DNA of 64,000 nt, taken from assembly GCF_000185965.1 (NCBI RefSeq), contig NC_014924.1, forward strand, positions 124,001-188,000, read 5' to 3'. The stretch comes from Pseudoxanthomonas suwonensis 11-1. GTDB taxonomy: Bacteria; Pseudomonadota; Gammaproteobacteria; Xanthomonadales; Xanthomonadaceae. This document shows positions 31,889 to 42,149 of this stretch, in pieces (position 1 is the stretch's first letter; the number at the start of each line of letters is the position of its first letter). The translations under genes and the position numbers were made by a program. The notes under the pieces are model-generated. The model was not told where the DNA came from. It made no database searches and saw only the letters and a program-made list of their open reading frames with translations.

Positions 31889-31929
31889 GCGACCGTCACC
31901 AGCAATATAAGGCAGATTTATGGGATACA

Positions 31930-31950
31930 TTGACAAAACTGCTTTGTCAA
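31930..31950. promoter_or_regulatory. 21-bp palindromic operator with divergent promoters
   Basis: TTGACAAA (31930-31937) and TTTGTCAA (31943-31950) are perfect inverted arms around ACTGC. The left arm supplies a -35 TTGACA for the plus strand, with TATGTT at 31952-31957 as a -10 (16-bp spacer). The right arm supplies TTGACA for the minus strand, with TATCCC as a -10 after 17 bp. It is a natural site for the adjacent LysR protein. Confidence 0.7.
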
Positions 31951-32000
31951 ATATGTTGCGGGACAGCAGCGTGGACTCCCGACCGATGCAGGAGCACGTC

Positions 32001-33689
32001 ATGTCCGCCGCCGCCGAAAGTGCCATTCCCGCCTCTCCCGCCCCGGGCCCGCGCCCGATCCCGGCCGTCGTCCCCAAGGGCGCCGCCGGGCTTTCGCTGA
32101 CCGAGCGGGTCGCAGGCCAGGAACAGCTGCTTCCGGCGCCGCTGCTGGGCCTGCTGGTGACGCTGCACCGGGCGATCGAGCCGGAGCGCCGCGCCCTGCT
32201 CGCCGCTCGCCGCGAGCGCCAGGCGTTCTACGACGCCGGCGGCCTGCCTGACTTCCGCGACGACACCCGCGCCATCCGCGAGGGCGACTGGAAGGTCGCG
32301 CCGATCCCGCAGGCGCTGCAGGACCGCCGGGTGGAGATCACTGGCCCGGTCGACCCGAAGATGGTGATCAACGCGCTGAACTCCGGCGCGCACTGCTACA
32401 TGGCCGACTTCGAGGATTCGACCGCACCGACCTGGCGCAACCTGCTGGCCGGCCAGGGCGCCCTGGCCGGCGCGGTGGAAGGCTCGCTGGCCTTCGAGGC
32501 CGGGAACGGCAAGCAGTACCGCCTGCGTCCGTACGAGGAGCGAGCCGTGCTGATCGTGCGTCCGCGCGGCTGGCACCTGGACGAGAAGCACGTGCGCGTG
32601 GACGGCGAGCCGATCGCCGGCGGCCTGTTCGACATGGCGGTGTTCGCGTACCACAACGCCCGCACCCTGATGGCCAACGACCGCGGGCCGTACTTCTACC
32701 TGCCCAAGCTGCAGTCGATGGAGGAAGCGGCGCTGTGGGAGACCGCGCTGTCCCACGTCGAGGCCTTCCTGGGCCTGCCGCACGGGCAGATGAAGGCCAC
32801 CGTCCTGGTCGAGACCCTGCCGGCGGTGTTCGAGATGGACGAGATCCTGCACGCGCTGCGCGACCGGATCGTCGGCCTGAACTGCGGGCGCTGGGACTAC
32901 ATCTTCTCGTACCTGAAGACCTTCCGCGCCCATGCCGACAAGGTGTTGCCGGAGCGTGGCCAGGTGACCATGACCCAGCCGTTCCTGAAGGCGTATTCGG
33001 AACTGCTGATCCGCACCTGCCACCGCCGCGGCGCCCACGCCATGGGCGGCATGGCGGCGCAGATCCCCAATGCCTCCGACCCGGTGGCCAACGAGCAGGC
33101 GCTGGCCCGCGTGCGCGCCGACAAGCTGCGCGAGGTCACCGCCGGCCACGACGGCACCTGGGTCGCGCATCCGGCGCTGATCCCGGTGGCGCGCGAGATG
33201 TTCGACGCGCACATGCCGACCCCGAACCAGCACCACGTGCTGCGCGAGGACGTGCAGGTCAGCCGCGACGACCTGATCCGTCCGTGCGAGGGCACGATCA
33301 CCCGCGAGGGCTTCGAGAACAACGTCGAGGTCTGCGTGCGCTACCTGGCCGCATGGCTGGACGGCAACGGCTGCGTCCCGATCCACGGGATGATGGAGGA
33401 CGCGGCCACCGCCGAGATCGCCCGCGCCCAGCTGTGGCAATGGCTGCACCACTCCGATCCGCGCGGCCGCCACGCCGACGGCAGCCCGGTGCACCTGGCC
33501 GACGGCACGGTGGTCGACTTCGCCCTGTTCGAACGCACCCTGGCCGCGCTGCCCGGGCGCCTGGGCGACACCGCCGGCCTGCCTGGCGGCAACCGCATCG
33601 CCGAGGCGACCGCGCTGCTGGACGAGCTGACCCGCGCCTGCCAGCTGGTCGAGTTCCTGACCCTGCCCGCCTACGCCCGCCTCGACTGA
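32001..33689 (+). CDS. aceB: Malate synthase A
   Basis: This 562-residue enzyme condenses glyoxylate and acetyl-CoA to malate in the glyoxylate bypass. Diagnostic segments are HCYMADFEDSTAPTW, YFYLPKLQSMEEAALW, KATVLVETLPAVFEMDEIL, GLNCGRWDYIFSY and MGGMAAQIPN. The start at 32001 has AGGAG 7 nt upstream; longer forms would run into the promoter region. It is followed by aceA, with a small hairpin at 33695-33714 between them. Confidence 0.96.
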   Translation: MSAAAESAIPASPAPGPRPIPAVVPKGAAGLSLTERVAGQEQLLPAPLLGLLVTLHRAIEPERRALLAARRERQAFYDAGGLPDFRDDTRAIREGDWKVAPIPQALQDRRVEITGPVDPKMVINALNSGAHCYMADFEDSTAPTWRNLLAGQGALAGAVEGSLAFEAGNGKQYRLRPYEERAVLIVRPRGWHLDEKHVRVDGEPIAGGLFDMAVFAYHNARTLMANDRGPYFYLPKLQSMEEAALWETALSHVEAFLGLPHGQMKATVLVETLPAVFEMDEILHALRDRIVGLNCGRWDYIFSYLKTFRAHADKVLPERGQVTMTQPFLKAYSELLIRTCHRRGAHAMGGMAAQIPNASDPVANEQALARVRADKLREVTAGHDGTWVAHPALIPVAREMFDAHMPTPNQHHVLREDVQVSRDDLIRPCEGTITREGFENNVEVCVRYLAAWLDGNGCVPIHGMMEDAATAEIARAQLWQWLHHSDPRGRHADGSPVHLADGTVVDFALFERTLAALPGRLGDTAGLPGGNRIAEATALLDELTRACQLVEFLTLPAYARLD

Positions 33690-33694
33690 CCGCC

Positions 33695-33714
33695 GTTCCG
33701 GCGCCAGCCGGAAC
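33695..33714 (+). repeat. Hairpin between aceB and aceA
   Basis: GTTCCGGC (33695-33702) pairs with GCCGGAAC (33707-33714) around GCCA, 5 nt after the aceB stop. It could adjust the aceB:aceA ratio by protecting mRNA ends or by partial termination. Confidence 0.5.
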
Positions 33715-33851
33715 CCACCCGCACAAGCCCGGTACCCACCGGGACCCGGCCTCCTTCCCCGACGCCCGAAAGGGCACCGGATCCGGCGCGTTCGCCCCGG
33801 ATCCGCGGAAGAACCATCGCAACCGCCCGACACAGCCCACGGAGAACCACC

Positions 33852-35144
<1,293 letters not shown>

Positions 35145-35264: not shown

Positions 35265-36299
35265 ATGTCGCACGACGGCGGGGGCGCCAACGCCCTCCAA
35301 GAGAGGACCAGCCTGCAACCGGACGCCGCGGCGCTGCTCGCGTCGCGCGAGTACGCGCTGTTCGCCTCCCTGGGCCGGACCCGCGAGATCGCCGCCGGCC
35401 AGTCCCTGTTCCGCCGTGGCGACACCGGCCGGGTCATGTACCTGGTGGTCGAGGGCGAGATCGAGCTGGACTTCGGTTCGGACCTGGCGCTCAAGCGCCT
35501 GGGGCCGCGCGAGTTCTTCGGCGAACTTGGCCTGCTGATCGGCGAACACACCCGCAGCGCCGATGCCGCCGCCACCACCGACACCCGCCTGATCGAGCTG
35601 GGGCTGGAGGAGTTCCAGGCCCTGGTCGACGCCGACCCGGCCCTGGTCGCGCAGTTCCTGCGCCGCGCCATCGCCCGGGTGGTGCTGAACGAGCAGGGCC
35701 TGATCCGCCAGCTCCGGCGCCGCAACCAGGACCTGGAAACGGCCCTGGACAACCTCTACGCCACCACCCACCAGCTCAACCAGACCGAGGAGCTGGCCCG
35801 GGTCGACGAGCTCACCGGCCTCTACAACCGCCGCGGCCTGATCCAGCACCTGCAGGACTGCCGCCAGCGCGGCTTCAAGGGCGGCGTCGGCCTGCTGCTG
35901 GTGGACTGCGACAGCTTCAAGCGGGTCAACGACGCCCACGGCCACCTGGCCGGCGACCGCGTGCTGCAGAACATCGCCGGCATCCTGCGTTCGGTGTCCA
36001 GCCCGGAGGACGTGGCCTGCCGCCTGGGCGGCGACGAGTTCTGCCTGCTGGTCATGGCCGAGGGCCGTGACGACGTCCTGCGCTACGCCGAGTTCGTGCT
36101 GGAGACCACCCGCAACCTGCTGCGCCTGCAGCAGGCCGTGCCCACCATCTGCCCGGTCAGCATCGGCGCCTGCCTGGTGGACGTGCACAGCGACTGGAAC
36201 CACTGGTACGCCCACGCCGATGCCGCCCTGTACCAGGCCAAGCGCGACGGCGGCAACCGCGTGCGTTGGGCCGACGGCGAGTTGCCCGTGCGCCTTTGA
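35265..36299 (+). CDS. Cyclic-nucleotide-binding GGDEF diguanylate cyclase
   Basis: The 344-residue cytoplasmic protein has an N-terminal cyclic-nucleotide-binding domain (about 25-135). Its phosphate-binding cassette keeps FGEL (Phe85-Leu88) and the Arg97-Ser98-Ala99 triplet. A linker helix (about 140-178) leads to a GGDEF domain with an intact signature (255-259) and the metal/GTP segment LLVDCDSFKRVND. The inhibitory I-site RxxD is not kept (SPED stands there). It resembles X. campestris XC_0249, which binds cGMP and makes c-di-GMP. The adjacent cyclase gene starts 11 nt after its stop, and its ribosome site overlaps that stop, so the two are co-expressed. Confidence 0.9.
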   Translation: MSHDGGGANALQERTSLQPDAAALLASREYALFASLGRTREIAAGQSLFRRGDTGRVMYLVVEGEIELDFGSDLALKRLGPREFFGELGLLIGEHTRSADAAATTDTRLIELGLEEFQALVDADPALVAQFLRRAIARVVLNEQGLIRQLRRRNQDLETALDNLYATTHQLNQTEELARVDELTGLYNRRGLIQHLQDCRQRGFKGGVGLLLVDCDSFKRVNDAHGHLAGDRVLQNIAGILRSVSSPEDVACRLGGDEFCLLVMAEGRDDVLRYAEFVLETTRNLLRLQQAVPTICPVSIGACLVDVHSDWNHWYAHADAALYQAKRDGGNRVRWADGELPVRL

Positions 36300-36310
36300 G
36301 GAGTCATCGA

Positions 36311-38878
36311 ATGGAAGGTCCGACGTATCCCGGAAGCGACGCACCGCAACTGCGGACCATCCTGATGACCGACCTGTGCGACTCCACCGCCGTCGTGGAG
36401 CGCCTGGGTGACATTACCGCCGCCTCGTTGTTCCGCGAGCACGACCAGCTGGTCCTGCGCCTGCAGCAGCAGTGGCGCGGCCGCCTGATCGACCGTTCCG
36501 ACGGCCTGCTGCTGGTGTTCGAACGCCCGGTGGACGGACTCGGCTTCGCCCTCGACTACCAGCGCAGCCTCGGCCCGCTGGGCCGCGCCCATGGCGTGCA
36601 GCTGCGGGCCCGCGCCGGCCTGCACGTGGGCGAGGTGGTGAGCTGGGCCAACGACGAGGAAGCGGTCCGCCACGGCGCCAAGCCGCTGGAGATCTCGGGC
36701 CTGGCCAAGCCGCTGGCGGCGCGCCTGATGGCGCTGGCCAATCCCGGCCAGATCCTGCTGTCGCACGTGGCCGAGACCCTGGCCCGGCGCGCCGCCTCCG
36801 AGCTGGGCCCGGGGCTCGGCCGCGCCCTGGTCTGGAAGAGCCACGGCCGCTGGCACTTCAAGGGCCTGCCGGAGCCGCTGGAGATCCACGAAGCCGGCGA
36901 GGAGGGCATTGCCGACATGGCGCCGCCGCGGCCGGCCGACGGCAAGGCCCGTCGCGACCTGCCCCTGTGGCGGCGTCCCGCCGCGGTGCTGGCCCAGTGC
37001 ACGGCGGTGCTGGCCCTGGGCCTGGTGCTGTACCTGACCACCCGCACCGAGCCGGCCATCGCCTTCGCCGAACGCGGCTGGGTGGTGCTGGCCGACCTGG
37101 ACAACAACACCGGGCAGGCGGTCCTCGACGACGCGGTAGGCCAGGCCCTGCGCCTGAGCCTGGGCCAGTCCCGCCACGTCAACGTGGTCTCGGACACCAA
37201 GGTCCGCGACACCCTGGCGCGGATGCGGCGCCCGGCCGACGCCGCGGTGGACCGCGCCCTGGCCGCGGAGATCGCGGTCCGCGACGGCGCCTGGGGCGTG
37301 GTCCTGCCGAGCGTGTCGGAGGTCGATGGCCGCGTGCATGTCGTGCTGGAGCTGATCGACCCTCAAAGCCGCGACGTGATCTACGTGGCCCGCGCCGAGG
37401 GCGCGGGCATGGAGTCGGTGCTGGCCTCGATCGATGCCGCCGCCACCGACCTGCGCGAGCGCCTGGGCGAAGCCAGGCCCGCGCTGCGACGCGACTCCCG
37501 GCCGCTGCCGCAGGTTGCGACGGCCAGTCTCGATGCGCTGCGCGCGTATGCCCTGGGCCAGGAGGCCTATGCCCAGGGAAGCTTCCTGCAGGCGGTCGCG
37601 TCCTACGAGCGCGCGGTCAGCCTGGACCCGGACTTCGCCCTCGCCCACATCGGCCTGGCCCGTGCCTACAACACCCTGGACCGCCTGCCCGAGGGCATGC
37701 CGCACCTGCGCCGCGCCCAGGCCCTGCGCGGGAGCCTGGGCGCGCGCGACCAGATGTACCTGGATGCGTGGGCCGTGCAGGTCGACGATCCCGGGCGCGC
37801 GGTGGATGCGTGGATGCTCATGGCGCGGACCTACCCGGACTTCTTCCCGGCCCAGGCCAACGTGGCCTATGCGCTGGAGGTGCAGAACCAGCACGAGGAC
37901 GCGATCCCGTTCGCGACCCGGGCCGCGGTGCCGCAGAGCGAGTTCGGGCCGCTGTCGCTGGAGCTGCTCGGGCGCCTGCACCTGGCGCGGGGCGAGCGCG
38001 CGCCGGCGCGGGAAGCCCTGGAGGCGGCCGGCCGCCACGGCCTGCCGACGGCACAGGCCTGGCTGGCGGTGTGGCATGCGGTCGGCGACGACTTCGCCGC
38101 TGCCGAGTCCGTCTGGCCCGCGGACGGACAGCTGCGCCAGACCCTGTTCGACCGGGTCTCGATCTACCTCGACCAGCGCAAGTGGGAGGCCGCGCGCGCG
38201 GAGGCGGCGCGGGTCCAGCTGCGGGTTGGTCAGGCCGGTCCGCGCGCGCGCCAGGCGATGATGCCGGTGGCCGTGGCCGCCTGGGCCATGGGCGACCACG
38301 GCGCGGCCCTGGCCCAGGTCGAGGGCATGGTCGCGAGTGGACTGGCCGCGGTGGCCGAACCGGACAACGCCATGGACCAGCGCGACGACGCGGTACTGGT
38401 GCTGTATGCGGCCATCCTCGGCCAGCGCCTCGGCGACCAGCAGCCGGCGCGACGCGTGCTGCAGGCGCTGGAGAAGGAGCCAAGGCTGGCCGGCATGCAG
38501 CCGGTAAGTTCCCTGATGGCGGTGGTACGTGCCCGCCAGGCGCTGGCCTCGGGCGACGCCCACCAGGCGCTGGCGCTGCTGGACACCATCCGGGATGGAA
38601 CCGAATCGATCCAGGCGCGGGTCGCGCGGATCGAGGCGAGCCTGGCCATCGGCGACGACAAGGCCGCCAGCGCCGGAACCACCTGGCTGGCAGGGCGTCG
38701 TGGCCTGGCCTATGCCGAATATGGATGCGCCTGGTGCCAGCAGGGGCTCAACGTGGTCGATGCGCGCCTGGCGGCGGCACACGCCGATGCGCTGCGGGAC
38801 CCGGGCGCGGCCACCAAGGTGGTTTCCCGGCTGGCGTTGCCTCCGGCACGGGTGCTCGGAGGCGCCACGGGTTCCTAG
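36311..38878 (+). CDS. Membrane class III nucleotidyl cyclase with repeat domain (peptide modification system cyclase)
   Basis: The 855-residue protein has an N-terminal class III cyclase domain (about 15-190) with metal-binding Asp21 (MTDLCDST) and Asp64 (RSDGLLLVF) and Arg138. A transmembrane helix follows at about 224-244, then a long C-terminal region of TPR-like helical repeats, including YALGQEAYAQGSFLQAV. By eye, the adenine-specifying Lys and Asp are Ile60 and Leu131 and the usual Asn is Pro134, so it is not a standard adenylate cyclase. X. campestris XC_0250, next to XC_0249, makes cGMP. From memory, such proteins are also named putative peptide modification system cyclase (TIGR04510). 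The stop overlaps the precursor gene's stop. Confidence 0.85.
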   Translation: MEGPTYPGSDAPQLRTILMTDLCDSTAVVERLGDITAASLFREHDQLVLRLQQQWRGRLIDRSDGLLLVFERPVDGLGFALDYQRSLGPLGRAHGVQLRARAGLHVGEVVSWANDEEAVRHGAKPLEISGLAKPLAARLMALANPGQILLSHVAETLARRAASELGPGLGRALVWKSHGRWHFKGLPEPLEIHEAGEEGIADMAPPRPADGKARRDLPLWRRPAAVLAQCTAVLALGLVLYLTTRTEPAIAFAERGWVVLADLDNNTGQAVLDDAVGQALRLSLGQSRHVNVVSDTKVRDTLARMRRPADAAVDRALAAEIAVRDGAWGVVLPSVSEVDGRVHVVLELIDPQSRDVIYVARAEGAGMESVLASIDAAATDLRERLGEARPALRRDSRPLPQVATASLDALRAYALGQEAYAQGSFLQAVASYERAVSLDPDFALAHIGLARAYNTLDRLPEGMPHLRRAQALRGSLGARDQMYLDAWAVQVDDPGRAVDAWMLMARTYPDFFPAQANVAYALEVQNQHEDAIPFATRAAVPQSEFGPLSLELLGRLHLARGERAPAREALEAAGRHGLPTAQAWLAVWHAVGDDFAAAESVWPADGQLRQTLFDRVSIYLDQRKWEAARAEAARVQLRVGQAGPRARQAMMPVAVAAWAMGDHGAALAQVEGMVASGLAAVAEPDNAMDQRDDAVLVLYAAILGQRLGDQQPARRVLQALEKEPRLAGMQPVSSLMAVVRARQALASGDAHQALALLDTIRDGTESIQARVARIEASLAIGDDKAASAGTTWLAGRRGLAYAEYGCAWCQQGLNVVDARLAAAHADALRDPGAATKVVSRLALPPARVLGGATGS

Positions 38879-39180
38879 TTGGTCGTGCCCCCGGTATCCA
38901 GCTGGATCGGCTGCATCGACAGGCCCGAGGTCAGCGAGGCGCGGATCTCGTCGCGGGCCGCGGCGATGGTTTCCTTCGGCGCCAGCTGTTGCACGGCCAG
39001 GCGCTGGCCCAGCTGGGCGAGCCCGGTCGCGTCGGCATGGTGTCCGACCTGTGCCAGCGCGGAGGCCGGATCGCTGGAAAACAGGTCGCGGAATGCGTCG
39101 TCGCTGGAGAGCAGGTCCAGCAGGCGGTCCACCACTCCAGCGGGCAGCGGCTGCGGCCCGCCGTTCGTCTCTTCCGACAT
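38875..39180 (-). CDS. RiPP-like precursor (putative modified peptide)
   Basis: This 101-residue peptide has a nitrile-hydratase/NHLP-like leader: PLPAGVVDRLLDLLSSDDAFRDLF followed by SSDPASALAQVGHHAD. A second amphipathic helix (ETIAAARDEIRASL) leads into a short core TSGLSMQPIQLDTGGTTN. The core has no Cys but is rich in Ser/Thr/Gly. The family resembles TIGR04509 as I recall it. A strong ribosome site (GGGGAAGGAAG) sits just before the ATG. The gene is tail-to-tail with the cyclase gene, sharing CTAG (38875-38878), and divergent from the dehydrogenase. The modification and mature product are unknown; no protease or transporter gene is adjacent. Confidence 0.8.
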   Translation of the reverse strand: MSEETNGGPQPLPAGVVDRLLDLLSSDDAFRDLFSSDPASALAQVGHHADATGLAQLGQRLAVQQLAPKETIAAARDEIRASLTSGLSMQPIQLDTGGTTN

Positions 39181-39200
39181 TCTTCCTTCCCCCCTTTTTA

Positions 39201-39219
39201 CCGCTTCGTCCGGAAGCGG
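39201..39219 (-). repeat. Hairpin in the precursor leader / divergent promoter region
   Basis: CCGCTTC (39201-39207) pairs with GAAGCGG (39213-39219) around GTCCG. It lies 20 nt before the precursor ATG on the minus strand and 48 nt before the dehydrogenase ATG on the plus strand. It could be an operator or an mRNA leader hairpin. Confidence 0.55.
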
Positions 39220-39267
39220 CTTCGCGCCGCAGCTTACCGGAGCCCGAGTGCAAGGAAACAGCCGCGG

Positions 39268-40449
39268 ATGCGAGTAAGACGTTGCAAGGTGCTCTACCTG
39301 GAGCCGCGCGAAGAGGTGGCGTTCGACCTGCAGGACCTGCTGGCCGGCGGCGACGGCGTCGCCCGCCAGCGTCGCTGGTTCGCGCTGGCGCCGCATAGCC
39401 GCGGCCAGGTGCCGGTGGATGCCGCGGCACGCGACGTGCTCGGCGGGCTCTCGCCCGAGCGTTGGGTGGAGGAGGAGATGCTGTCGCCGGCCCAGCGCGA
39501 GGCGCTGCCCGCGTTGGTCGAGGCCGGCCTGGTGGTGTGCGACGAACCGGCGCACGCGGCGATGCTGGCCCGCGACGAGGCACTGCGCGCGGCGCACTGG
39601 CATCCGCTGGCCGCGACCGCGCACGCACTGACGCGCTGGAACGGGGTCGACACCACCGAGGCGATGCGCAACACCGGCACGCAGACGGCACCGGAACTGC
39701 GCCAGGTGCTGGGACCGCCGCCGCCGGAGGCGATCGTGCCGCCCCGTGCCGGCGCGCCGCTGCCGTTGCCGGTCCCGGAAGCGACAGGCTTCGATGCGTT
39801 GCTGCGTCGGCGCGCCACCTGCCGTAACTTCGACCGCGGGCGTCCATTGCCGATGGAGGAACTGTCGCGGCTCCTGCATCGCGTCTTCGCCGCGCAGGGC
39901 ACGGTGCGCGTTACCGGCGACACGGTGTTCCTGAAGAAGAACAGCCCCTCCGGCGGCGGCCTGCATCCGGTCGAGGCCTACCTGCTGGTGCAGCAGGTCG
40001 AAGGCCTGGACGCCGGCCTCTACCATTACGACCCGCTCGCGCACGCGCTGCGTCCACTGCCCGCGCCGCCCGGATCGCTGGACGGGTTCGCGCTGCAGGC
40101 GGTCGCCGGTCAGACATGGTTCGCGCAGGCCCACGTACTGGCGATCCTCGCGCCTCGCTACGCGCGCAATTTCTGGAAGTACCGCCAGCACGCCAAGGCC
40201 CACCGCGCCGTCGTGCTGGAAGCGGGCCACCTGTCGCAGACGCTTTACCTGGCAGCCACCGAAGCCGGTCTGGCGGCCTACGTGACCTGCGCGATCAACG
40301 AGGACTGCCTGGACGAGGCGCTGGGGCTGGACCCGGTCAACGAAGGCGTGCTCGCTGTCTGCGGTTTCGGCTGGCGCGGCCAGGTGATGGAAACCATGGA
40401 GCTGGATCCGTTGGGCGCTGCATGGCAGGTTCCACCGCCTCCGAACTGA
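39268..40449 (+). CDS. SagB-like FMN dehydrogenase (putative peptide maturation dehydrogenase)
   Basis: The 393-residue protein has a C-terminal nitroreductase/SagB domain (about 170-385) with FMN-contact motifs RRATCRNFDRGRPL, NSPSGGGLHPVEAYL and AVVLEAGHLSQTLYLAA. The N-terminal 165 residues are family-specific and could bind the leader peptide. SagB enzymes oxidise azolines in RiPPs. No YcaO cyclodehydratase is encoded in this window, so the reaction may differ. The name follows TIGR04511 as recalled. ATG 39268 has AGGAAA about 10 nt upstream. It is divergent from the precursor gene across 87 bp. Confidence 0.82.
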   Translation: MRVRRCKVLYLEPREEVAFDLQDLLAGGDGVARQRRWFALAPHSRGQVPVDAAARDVLGGLSPERWVEEEMLSPAQREALPALVEAGLVVCDEPAHAAMLARDEALRAAHWHPLAATAHALTRWNGVDTTEAMRNTGTQTAPELRQVLGPPPPEAIVPPRAGAPLPLPVPEATGFDALLRRRATCRNFDRGRPLPMEELSRLLHRVFAAQGTVRVTGDTVFLKKNSPSGGGLHPVEAYLLVQQVEGLDAGLYHYDPLAHALRPLPAPPGSLDGFALQAVAGQTWFAQAHVLAILAPRYARNFWKYRQHAKAHRAVVLEAGHLSQTLYLAATEAGLAAYVTCAINEDCLDEALGLDPVNEGVLAVCGFGWRGQVMETMELDPLGAAWQVPPPPN

Positions 40450-40622: not shown

Positions 40623-42149
40623 TCAGTCGCGCAGCAGCAGCGGCGCGCGGTAGCCCAGTGCCTCGGCCAGGTGCGGCCGGCCGATCCCCTCGCTGCCGTC
40701 GAGGTCGGCGATGGTGCGCGCCACCCGCAGCACACGGTGCATGCTGCGCGCGGTCAGCTGCAGTCGCTCGGCGGCCTGCTCGAGCAGGGCCTGCTCGGCA
40801 TCCGCCAGCCGGCAGCAGGCGGCAAGTCCGGTGGCATCGAGCCGCGCGTTGAGTCCGCTGCCGCGTGCCTCCTGCCGTGCCCGCGCCGCCTCCACCCGCG
40901 CACGTACTCCAACGCTGGATTCGGAAGGCGGCGCATCGGCGCGCAGCTGTGCCGGCGGCAGGCGGGCCATCGAAAGATGCAGGTCGATGCGATCCAGCAG
41001 CGGACCGGACAGCCGGCCCCAGTAACGCGCGACCATGTCCGGGGTGCAGCGGCAGCGCGCCGAAGGATCGCCCGCGAAGCCGCAGGGGCACGGGTTCAAC
41101 GCAGCCACGAGCTGGAACCGCGCCGGGAACTCCGCGCTGCGTCCGGCCCGGGAGATCGTGATGCGCCCGGACTCCAGTGGCTCGCGCAGCACTTCCAGGG
41201 CCGCGCGGCTCCATTCGGGCAGCTCGTCGAGGAAAAGTACCCCGTTGTGCGCCAGCGAGATCTCGCCCGGCCGCGGCGGACTGCCGCCGCCGGCGAGGGC
41301 GACCGGGCTGGCGCCATGGTGCGGCGCGCGCAACGGGCGCTGGCGCCAGCGTGACGGGTCCAGGCCCTGGCCGCTGATCGAGTGCACTGCCGCGGTTTCC
41401 AGCGCCTCGGCCTCGCTGGCCTCCGGCAGCAGTCCGGGCAGGCAGGAGGCCAGCAGGGTCTTGCCGCAACCCGGGGGACCGCTCATCAGCAGATGGTGTC
41501 CACCGGCCGCGGCGATCTCCAGCGCCCGCCGCGCCTGCAGCTGGCCGCGCACCGCGGCCAGGTCGGGCGGCGCTGGCGCGGGGCGGAGGGTTTCGGCCGC
41601 GGCCTCGCCGGAAGCCTCGCCGACGCTGGGCAGGCGCGCCTGTCCGCCGAGCCCGGCGCAGGTCTCCAGCAGGGTGCGGGCGGCATAGGCCTCGGCCTCG
41701 CGCGCCAGTGCAGCCTCGGCCGCACTGGCAGCCGGGACCACCAGCCTGCGGCCGGCGCGCGCGGCGGCCAGGACCGCCGGCAGGATGCCGTCCACCGGCC
41801 GCAGCTCCCCGGTCAGGCCGAGCTCGCCAAGGAACTCGCAGCCGGCCAGCGCGTCGCGGTCGATCTGTCCGGACGCGGCGAGGATGCCCAGTGCGATCGG
41901 CAGGTCGAAGCGGCCGCCGTCCTTGGGCAGGTCGGCGGGCGCAAGGTTGATGGTGATGCGCCGCTGCGGGTACTCGAACTGCGCGCAGAGGATGGCGGCG
42001 CGTACCCGGTCACGGGATTCGCGTACCGCCGCGGCAGGCAGGCCGACGATCTGGGTGCAGGGCAGGCCGCCGGAGAGATGCACCTCGACCTGCACGGCCG
42101 GAGCGGCCACGCCCGCACGGGCGCGACTGTGCACCAGGGCCAGGCCCAT
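40623..42149 (-). CDS. comM: ComM/YifB family Mg-chelatase-like AAA ATPase
   Basis: This 508-residue protein has an N-terminal Lon-protease-like ChlI domain (about 20-165), a Walker A GPPGCGKTLLASCL, a Walker B GVLFLDELPEW, an insertion with the zinc-type CPCGFAGDPSARCRC, and the C-terminal Mg-chelatase lid. ComM is a hexameric helicase that promotes branch migration during natural transformation. It begins 6 nt after the ubiK stop and is co-transcribed with it. Confidence 0.94.
   Translation of the reverse strand: MGLALVHSRARAGVAAPAVQVEVHLSGGLPCTQIVGLPAAAVRESRDRVRAAILCAQFEYPQRRITINLAPADLPKDGGRFDLPIALGILAASGQIDRDALAGCEFLGELGLTGELRPVDGILPAVLAAARAGRRLVVPAASAAEAALAREAEAYAARTLLETCAGLGGQARLPSVGEASGEAAAETLRPAPAPPDLAAVRGQLQARRALEIAAAGGHHLLMSGPPGCGKTLLASCLPGLLPEASEAEALETAAVHSISGQGLDPSRWRQRPLRAPHHGASPVALAGGGSPPRPGEISLAHNGVLFLDELPEWSRAALEVLREPLESGRITISRAGRSAEFPARFQLVAALNPCPCGFAGDPSARCRCTPDMVARYWGRLSGPLLDRIDLHLSMARLPPAQLRADAPPSESSVGVRARVEAARARQEARGSGLNARLDATGLAACCRLADAEQALLEQAAERLQLTARSMHRVLRVARTIADLDGSEGIGRPHLAEALGYRAPLLLRD

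Follow-up and report, generated by a model that had tools for sequence, protein, structure and literature searches.

A putative cGMP relay joined to an exchangeable candidate peptide block in a four-gene locus of Pseudoxanthomonas suwonensis and its relatives

Gene content and arrangement of the locus

A 64,000-nucleotide stretch of the Pseudoxanthomonas suwonensis 11-1 genome (3,419,049 bp; contig NC_014924.1, positions 124,001 to 188,000), referred to here as the window, carries four adjacent genes that bring a cyclic nucleotide relay together with a small peptide of the RiPP (ribosomally synthesized and post-translationally modified peptide) kind. The layout given by an initial annotation of this DNA, in which a diguanylate cyclase with a cyclic-nucleotide-binding domain (CNB-GGDEF) is followed 11 nt later by a membrane cyclase, a tail-to-tail peptide gene, and a divergent dehydrogenase gene, was confirmed by coordinates and family matches. 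Positions within the window are as follows.

35265-36299, plus strand: CNB-GGDEF diguanylate cyclase, similar to XC_0249 of Xanthomonas campestris (PF00027 and PF00990)
36311-38878, plus strand: class III cyclase, starting 11 nt after the CNB-GGDEF gene (TIGR04510, 1151 bits; cut-off 400)
36311-36979, plus strand: residues 1-223 of the cyclase, its cytoplasmic catalytic half; part of the backbone, evolving with the GGDEF gene
36980-37036, plus strand: predicted membrane helix of the cyclase, residues 224-242; N-terminal side inside by charge
37037-38878, plus strand: residues 243-855 of the cyclase plus stop codon, its predicted extracytoplasmic TPR half; exchangeable and proposed to be the receptor of the peptide
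38875-39180, minus strand: leader-type precursor peptide, NHLP-related, 101 aa (TIGR04509, 100 bits; cut-off 34)
38878-38943, minus strand: last 22 residues of the peptide, a type-specific C-terminal tail proposed as the core
39181-39267: 87-bp gap separating the peptide gene from the divergent dehydrogenase gene
39268-40449, plus strand: SagB-like flavin dehydrogenase, divergent from the peptide gene (TIGR04511, 596 bits; cut-off 240)
37070-40449: specificity block of outer cyclase half, peptide, and dehydrogenase, exchanged as one unit in relatives

The peptide and cyclase genes overlap by 4 nt, and from the gene arrangement both promoters of the divergent pair likely lie in the 87-bp gap. 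The start of the specificity block is the sliding-window switch at cyclase residue 254, described below. TPR repeats were found in the window cyclase by Pfam scan. NCBIfam names the three other families 'putative peptide modification system cyclase' (TIGR04510), 'NHLP-related RiPP peptide' (TIGR04509), and 'putative peptide maturation dehydrogenase' (TIGR04511), and the window dehydrogenase also matches the SagB-type model TIGR03605 (122 bits; cut-off 78). A minus-strand open frame of 1254 codons (36083-39847), antisense across the cyclase and beyond, is expected because the DNA is GC-rich and was not taken as a gene.

Co-occurrence across the order

A set of 250 genomes of the order, one genome per species, was scanned with the curated NCBIfam cut-offs for the cyclase, peptide, and dehydrogenase trio and at E<=1e-30 for CNB-GGDEF. 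TIGR04510, TIGR04509, and TIGR04511 exceed their cut-offs in an identical set of 57 genomes, and CNB-GGDEF is present in 56 of these (the exception being G091) and, outside the set, in 4 of 193 genomes. Five genomes (G235, G214, G014, G024, and G073) do carry the GGDEF gene, but away from the cassette or on a separate contig. The window's order, with the GGDEF and cyclase genes forward, the peptide gene reversed, and the dehydrogenase gene last, is shared by 140 of 198 loci, a tally that counts some genomes more than once; the dehydrogenase is reversed in 11. This was the co-occurrence check suggested by the initial annotation, and the identical sets together with the shared order rule out chance adjacency: no supporting point was found for the four genes being chance neighbors, an explanation of negligible probability. 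The Fisher value obtained for the co-occurrence does not account for phylogeny. In the wider class, TIGR04510 was matched at E<=1e-100 in 3 of 274 genomes, all within the window's own family.

For the four genomes with CNB-GGDEF and no trio, tblastn of 10-12 kb around the GGDEF gene detected no remains of the trio. One of them (G111) has S at the cGMP-contact position F73, and another (G030) has L at H98 and S at N145. Locus L200 (JAHREJ010000008.1) comes from a record titled Bacillus subtilis SK7B5, and its cassette groups with Stenotrophomonas loci in lineage 3; the assembly is probably mislabeled or contaminated.

Two evolutionary units within the cyclase

Co-evolution was assessed in 168 of the 198 loci, namely those with all four genes, a cyclase match starting at or before model position 60, and a dehydrogenase match of at least 250 positions. 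Exact deduplication left 158 loci and strict deduplication 131 (27 rows dropped); counts over the 158 rows include some genomes more than once, and pairs of loci are not independent. Homologues with an altered or missing cyclase domain fell outside the set (G091; second copies in G059, G073, G096, G199, and L220; a fragment in G235). The cytoplasmic catalytic half of the cyclase is abbreviated CYC-N, the outer TPR half CYC-C, and the dehydrogenase DH; GGDEF and CYC-N together form the backbone.

In the alignment of 158 loci, identity over cyclase residues 12-253 tracks GGDEF (rho 0.64-0.76) more than DH (0.28-0.37), while from residue 254 it tracks DH (0.25-0.65) and mostly not GGDEF (0.07-0.39, excluding the last, sparsely filled columns). 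The switch falls between windows 214-253 and 254-293, beside the membrane helix. The strongest hydrophobic window occurs at the same place in 158/158 cyclases (224-242 of the window protein), and a second one over 1.6 in only 4. Mean net charge is +4.6 before the helix and -1.0 after it, which predicts that the TPR half is placed outside the membrane.

Correlations of identity among the 131 loci fall into the same two groups: 0.84 for GGDEF and CYC-N, 0.73-0.82 within CYC-C, peptide, and DH, and 0.40-0.46 across. Given the backbone, partial rank correlations are 0.70 for CYC-C with DH and 0.55 for CYC-C with peptide (partial Mantel, 0/300 permutations each), and CYC-C with GGDEF given the rest falls to 0.09 (14/300). 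A partial correlation of 0.28 persists between CYC-C and peptide given DH and backbone. Which of its two partners CYC-C follows more closely depends on the measure, as rank correlation favors DH (0.75) over peptide (0.63) and Pearson correlation reverses the order (DH 0.77, peptide 0.82). Partial correlations of the leader and tail of the peptide against two parts of the dehydrogenase are small and are given little weight. On these alignments the cyclase is two evolutionary units that meet at the membrane helix, a feature new in this analysis, the catalytic half evolving with the GGDEF gene and the outer half with the peptide and dehydrogenase.

Block exchange of the outer half with its peptide and dehydrogenase

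Two pairs of Xanthomonas genomes locate the boundaries of exchange in DNA. In the clearest pair, G170 and G241, GGDEF and cyclase residues 1-200 are 100% identical, while identity is 33% for the dehydrogenase and 14-46% for 50-residue windows of the cyclase from residue 251 to 850. Their DNA is 97.0% identical up to about cyclase nucleotide 809, is then unmatched for about 3.6 kb (blastn, E<=1e-10), and resumes at 99.1%. X. arboricola NL_P126 and pv. juglandis CFBP 2528 have flanks of 90% and 93% identity, and the interior yields one weak match of 305 bp (66%). The exchanged block is 3-4 kb, and the breakpoints of both pairs rule out a purely vertical divergence of the outer half within Xanthomonas.

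The pattern extends to 464 pairs of loci in which GGDEF and CYC-N are both at least 85% identical. Outer halves are below 40% in 317 of them (median identity 35% for the peptide and 46% for the dehydrogenase), intermediate in 26, and at least 70% in 121, all of which have peptides of at least 64% and dehydrogenases of at least 71%. None of 133 pairs with outer halves of at least 60% has a dehydrogenase below 60% or a peptide below 50%. Types were drawn by single linkage at thresholds of our own (CYC-C 60%, DH 68%; other cuts would give other numbers), which yielded 80 outer-half types at 60% identity among the 131 loci. The 5 CYC-C types of Xanthomonas lineage 0 (23 loci) correspond one to one to its 5 DH clusters, the 6 CYC-C types of Xanthomonas lineage 1 (18 loci) agree with the DH clusters at an adjusted Rand index (ARI) of 0.95, and lineages 2, 3, and 4 (9, 8, and 6 loci) reach an ARI of 1.0.

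On the first backbone DNA tree (25 rows), 10 type changes were counted against 11.0 after shuffling, a value as low in 57/200 shuffles; the second (18 rows) gave 10 against 10.8 (as low in 72/200). Types are thus scattered nearly at random, indicating that blocks have moved repeatedly. Precursor, enzyme, and sensing half changing as one block beside a conserved output, as in a pherotype system, is the pattern seen in Xanthomonas and, in part, in Lysobacter lineage 5.

Conservation of the predicted output

The CNB-GGDEF and cyclase genes closely resemble a published pair of Xanthomonas campestris, in which XC_0250 makes cyclic GMP (cGMP) and XC_0249 is activated by it, forming a relay from cGMP to cyclic di-GMP (c-di-GMP) (passages of PMC3770947). 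Residues F73, E90, H98, N145, and E146 of XC_0249 and D41, D71, L73, A150, and A161 of XC_0250 are conserved with unchanged numbering in Xanthomonas G170, which differs at cyclase residue 157 (I, not L). In all 158 complete loci, D28, D41, D71, and A150 of the cyclase are invariant, as are F73, E90, H98, E146, and the GGDEF motif of CNB-GGDEF; N145 is kept in 139, and cyclase L73, L157, and A161 vary, mostly conservatively. PDB entry 5h5o ('Diguanylate cyclase'), which we take to be the domain of XC_0249, is up to 96.9% identical to family members. The PDB entry of the 2013 paper itself is 4KG1 (PMC3770947, in part). The window CNB-GGDEF is therefore proposed to read cGMP and make c-di-GMP, and the pair corresponds to the XC_0250/XC_0249 relay. 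Judging from relatives, peptide and dehydrogenase genes presumably stand beside XC_0250 itself as well; the named loci include no X. campestris.

The peptide and its dehydrogenase

The last ~20 residues of the Xanthomonas peptides are much alike within a type and take forms such as NMQPIRLNVPSGS.PQLKK, NHTVIFAFES.S.RSTL.R., and GWVVFCR. Invariant columns make up a share of 0.55-0.95 of the last 22 residues in six Xanthomonas types, and invariance of the tail exceeds that of the rest of the peptide in 8/11 types, the leader figure of type (0,0) being upset by an overlong open reading frame (ORF). For the tail, the ratio of nonsynonymous to synonymous polymorphism (pN/pS) ranges from 0.05 to 0.17 across the six Xanthomonas types and in 5/6 is lower than in the preceding 23 codons; the two types without overlap between the peptide and cyclase genes have 0.07 and 0.05. 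This constraint argues that the peptide gene is real and makes the tail a good candidate for the specific part. A Cys lies within the last 20 residues of 49/131 peptides, and C, S, or T within the last 12 of 118/131. Of the traits of a RiPP, the leader family and the coding constraint were seen, and modification of the peptide is putative. A hydrophobic export-type stretch was not found in 129/131 peptides, and none occurs in the first 45 aligned residues of the dehydrogenase in 158/158 loci.

The dehydrogenase shares with CyaGox a W-K-Y stretch containing K304 and Y305. A RiPP-recognition domain was suspected in its first ~165 residues, and a PDB sequence search with this part returned no relatives (best E 0.15). 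YcaO was matched in only 3 of the 57 cassette genomes (G068, G195, and G235) and not in the window genome (G000). A thiazole/oxazole-modified microcin (TOMM) or azole peptide is thus unlikely, the system is not an ordinary TOMM system, and the substrate of the dehydrogenase is probably not a YcaO product. The window genome has one C39 match, away from the cassette; a linked or universal C39 exporter was not found among the scanned neighbors or in G061 and G136.

Departures from the common arrangement

G091 has five peptide matches, a dehydrogenase, and an outer half, and no GGDEF match. Its cyclase is altered (D41 is Y, L73 is R) and matches the NCBIfam model from position 126 only, as if the input had been kept and the output, probably, lost. 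In G096, G199, and L220 a second outer half without a cyclase domain follows the dehydrogenase. These TPR-only copies, possibly left over from an earlier block or acting as decoy receptors, lie directly after the dehydrogenase at the following positions.

L048:8435-10357: TPR-only cyclase copy
L066:8666-10591: TPR-only cyclase copy
L220:10025-11950: TPR-only cyclase copy

G073 carries a homologous outer half as a fusion with a Ser/Thr kinase domain (L090:2357-5239; 324 bits, under the TIGR04510 cut-off), an arrangement that suits a sensor module. G235 has an enlarged locus (L071:3561-19900, and L072) with five dehydrogenase matches, four over the cut-off, and its GGDEF gene is ~180 kb away.

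Chromosomal setting

Malate synthase and isocitrate lyase genes (31920-35144) precede the cassette in the window, and a ComM-type gene (40623-42149) follows it (Pfam). ORF families at both flanks recur in 19-36 of 50 lineages, some of them picked as antisense shadows; this wide recurrence marks an old site, whose inner block is exchanged. An extra conserved partner gene was sought in 114 flanked loci of 50 GGDEF lineages, and the top recurrent families proved to be chromosomal neighbors. ORFs were chosen by length, and some of them are therefore antisense artifacts; the scan covered ten of the recurrent proteins: malate synthase, isocitrate lyase, two ComM-type Mg-chelatases, a LysR regulator, a biotin carboxylase, an S9 peptidase, a BMFP protein, and two with no Pfam match. 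The S9 prolyl-oligopeptidase (L035:9037-11157 and relatives), with an apparent lipoprotein signal, lies after the dehydrogenase on the opposite strand and recurs in 7 lineages (24 ORFs); it is possibly a peptide-processing enzyme, or just a neighbor.

Discussion

The comparisons are consistent with a four-gene signaling cassette that has a fixed output and a swappable input. Sequence comparison shows an output unit of CNB-GGDEF and the cytoplasmic guanylate cyclase domain, and an input unit of the outer TPR half, the leader peptide, and the SagB-like dehydrogenase, exchanged as a block. It is reasonably probable, in our judgment, that the outer half has the modified peptide as its ligand, and that this peptide sets cGMP and, through it, c-di-GMP. 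The dehydrogenase would modify the C-terminal tail of the peptide, and the product would leave the cytoplasm and bind the TPR half of the cyclase on cells of the same type. Binding would change the synthesis of cGMP, which through the cGMP-binding domain of the GGDEF protein would set c-di-GMP and thereby biofilm and related behavior. The cassette may then serve as a self, kin, or quorum signal with many specificities. For the more specific proposal of a peptide-gated receptor guanylate cyclase, in a Gram-negative pherotype system with dozens of specificities passing between species and, in Xanthomonas, moving as one block at a fixed chromosomal site, the chances appear evenly balanced.

The initial annotation had described the relay as physically joined to the peptide cassette, and co-occurrence and co-evolution support a link that is both physical and evolutionary. 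It had allowed that the relay might control, sense, or be controlled by the peptide; the coupling can now be drawn more sharply, as only the outer half of the cyclase belongs with the peptide module. Its suggestion that the outer repeat domain meets the peptide gains from the finding that the TPR half co-evolves and swaps with the peptide and dehydrogenase, while the binding itself stays putative.

Several observations weigh against the signaling interpretation. The exchanged parts are contiguous, and linkage alone could explain their joint transfer, which is its main weakness; ligand binding, peptide chemistry, and export are all putative steps deduced from sequence. The cyclase domain of XC_0250 alone restored biofilm in a mutant (passages of PMC3770947), suggesting that the outer half modulates rather than being required. 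The parts of the block do not always vary together: 87 of 232 pairs with DH of at least 70% have CYC-C below 50%, L171 and L172 share 78% in the peptide and 87% in DH and only 45% in CYC-C, and in Lysobacter lineage 5 (6 loci) four CYC-C types go with a single DH cluster (ARI 0). Between the two units a small partial correlation of CYC-N with DH remains (0.17; 0/300 permutations). Type t0 is somewhat clustered on the tree (26/500 shuffles give as low a value), and resolution of the lineage-1 tree is poor, with 2/15 inner branches starred. The tail is not the most conserved part of the peptide in 3/11 types, its pN/pS is 0.20-0.94 in five types outside Xanthomonas (type (2,7) being unreliable because of an indel), and a loose CFEA-like stretch is common to the tails of several types (59/131). 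No exporter was found among the recurrent neighbors scanned, and no C39 exporter was matched in cassette genomes G061 and G136. Individual genomes add to this, as four carry GGDEF without the trio (L095 in G111, L096 in G106, L097 in G231, and L098 in G030), the altered cyclase of G091 keeps D28, D71, and A150, and G235 combines nine peptide matches on both strands with one full-length cyclase and a cyclase fragment.

The main rival is linkage drag, in which a fast-changing RiPP is under diversifying selection and the 3' two thirds of the cyclase is a passenger, the cyclase either regulating or ignoring the peptide. The 3' part of the cyclase does lie between the peptide and dehydrogenase genes and the nearest shared sequence, the breakpoints fall in conserved sequence on both sides of the contiguous block, and there is hardly any DNA alignment between blocks of different type, which would make internal reassortment rare anyway. 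However, the fraction of close-backbone pairs in which the outer half has fallen below 40% (317/464) is more than expected of a passenger, the switch sits beside the membrane helix, and the correlation of CYC-C with the peptide survives conditioning on DH and backbone. In Lysobacter lineage 5, moreover, identities spread more widely for the outer half (0.36-0.81) and the peptide (0.38-0.71) than for the dehydrogenase (0.68-0.84). Linkage drag is on this evidence unlikely, though it deserves serious weight.

It is distinctly unlikely that the outer half is instead part of a maturation or export machinery, docking the precursor or the dehydrogenase, with cGMP reporting peptide production. The NCBIfam name of the cyclase may be read in this way, and the rank correlations (though not the Pearson values) tie CYC-C more closely to DH than to the peptide. 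Docking of this kind is at odds with an outer half predicted to lie outside while nearly all peptides and every dehydrogenase lack an export-type hydrophobic stretch, and the homologous half on the Ser/Thr kinase of G073 better suits a general sensor. Antagonism, with a bacteriocin-like peptide, the outer half as a self-recognition or immunity element, and cGMP and c-di-GMP as an alarm or response, would fit the type-specific exchange and the many types, which recall bacteriocin and immunity pairs, as well as the extra TPR-only copies of G096, G199, and L220. Yet no recurrent exporter or immunity gene was found among the neighbors scanned, the window peptide matched no toxin model in NCBIfam or Pfam, and the cyclase and GGDEF residues are intact in complete loci, which points to signaling; antagonism is very improbable.

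It should be noted that parts of this system have been cataloged before. All three members of the TIGR04509/10/11 system score far over their cut-offs in the window locus, but the NCBIfam names give no function; the present analysis adds the CNB-GGDEF partner, the division of the cyclase into two units, and the exchange of the block. The initial annotation held the link to be undescribed; with the trio curated in NCBIfam, the cyclase-peptide link is not wholly so, and no paper was found that joins the trio to the relay. The TIGR04509/10/11 accessions and the cyclase name matched no paper, while looser names returned two unrelated papers and one on graspetides. None of the matches listed treated the link of relay and cassette, in a search that left most subscription journals and preprints outside its scope. 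In its main text PMC3770947, as available, treats the cyclase and GGDEF only, without the word 'peptide', and its passages do not describe the peptide, the dehydrogenase, or the exchange of the outer half; the 2013 paper leaves the input of the relay open and terms the TPR domain uncharacterized. Graspetide loci are the nearest system in print: a survey reports SagB-like nitroreductases and, in complex loci, adenylate cyclases beside ATP-grasp ligases (passages of PMC8939145). Those loci are ATP-grasp-based, and the same passages do not mention a CNB-GGDEF relay.

By analogy, the exchange pattern is that of the peptide-pheromone cassettes agr and ComQXPA, here assembled from unrelated components. 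In ComP, the part that binds ComX varies and the cytoplasmic part is conserved (PMC4008528, in part), and agr groups rest on polymorphism of AgrB, AgrD, and AgrC (PMC8919982, in part); as in those systems, types are distinguished by the precursor, the modifying enzyme, and the receptor's sensing half, while the output half is conserved. Unlike them, the cassette has no histidine kinase or response regulator, its receptor candidate is a guanylate cyclase, its enzyme is a SagB-like dehydrogenase, it is Gram-negative, and its signaling is putative. A SagB-family flavoenzyme is held in common with TOMM systems (McbC of microcin B17, the cyanobactin oxidase CyaGox), which differ in that YcaO was not matched in 54/57 cassette genomes nor in the window genome. 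The TOMM system kinase/cyclase fusion TIGR03903 is a precedent for a signaling protein curated with a RiPP system; the kinase-fused paralogue L090 gives a sub-threshold match to it (125 bits; cut-off 706), and the window cyclase gives none at E<=0.1.

The analysis offers a concrete candidate input for the Xanthomonas cGMP relay, namely a cognate peptide produced from the next two genes. If true, this would be a peptide-receptor guanylate cyclase in bacteria and an agr-like specificity system assembled in Gram-negatives from unrelated parts, with a SagB-type dehydrogenase that apparently acts in the absence of a YcaO enzyme. The many soil and plant bacteria that carry the cassette look as if they used the peptide as a private signal and the outer half as its receptor, which may provide a possible basis for strain recognition in Xanthomonas, Stenotrophomonas, Lysobacter, and Pseudoxanthomonas.

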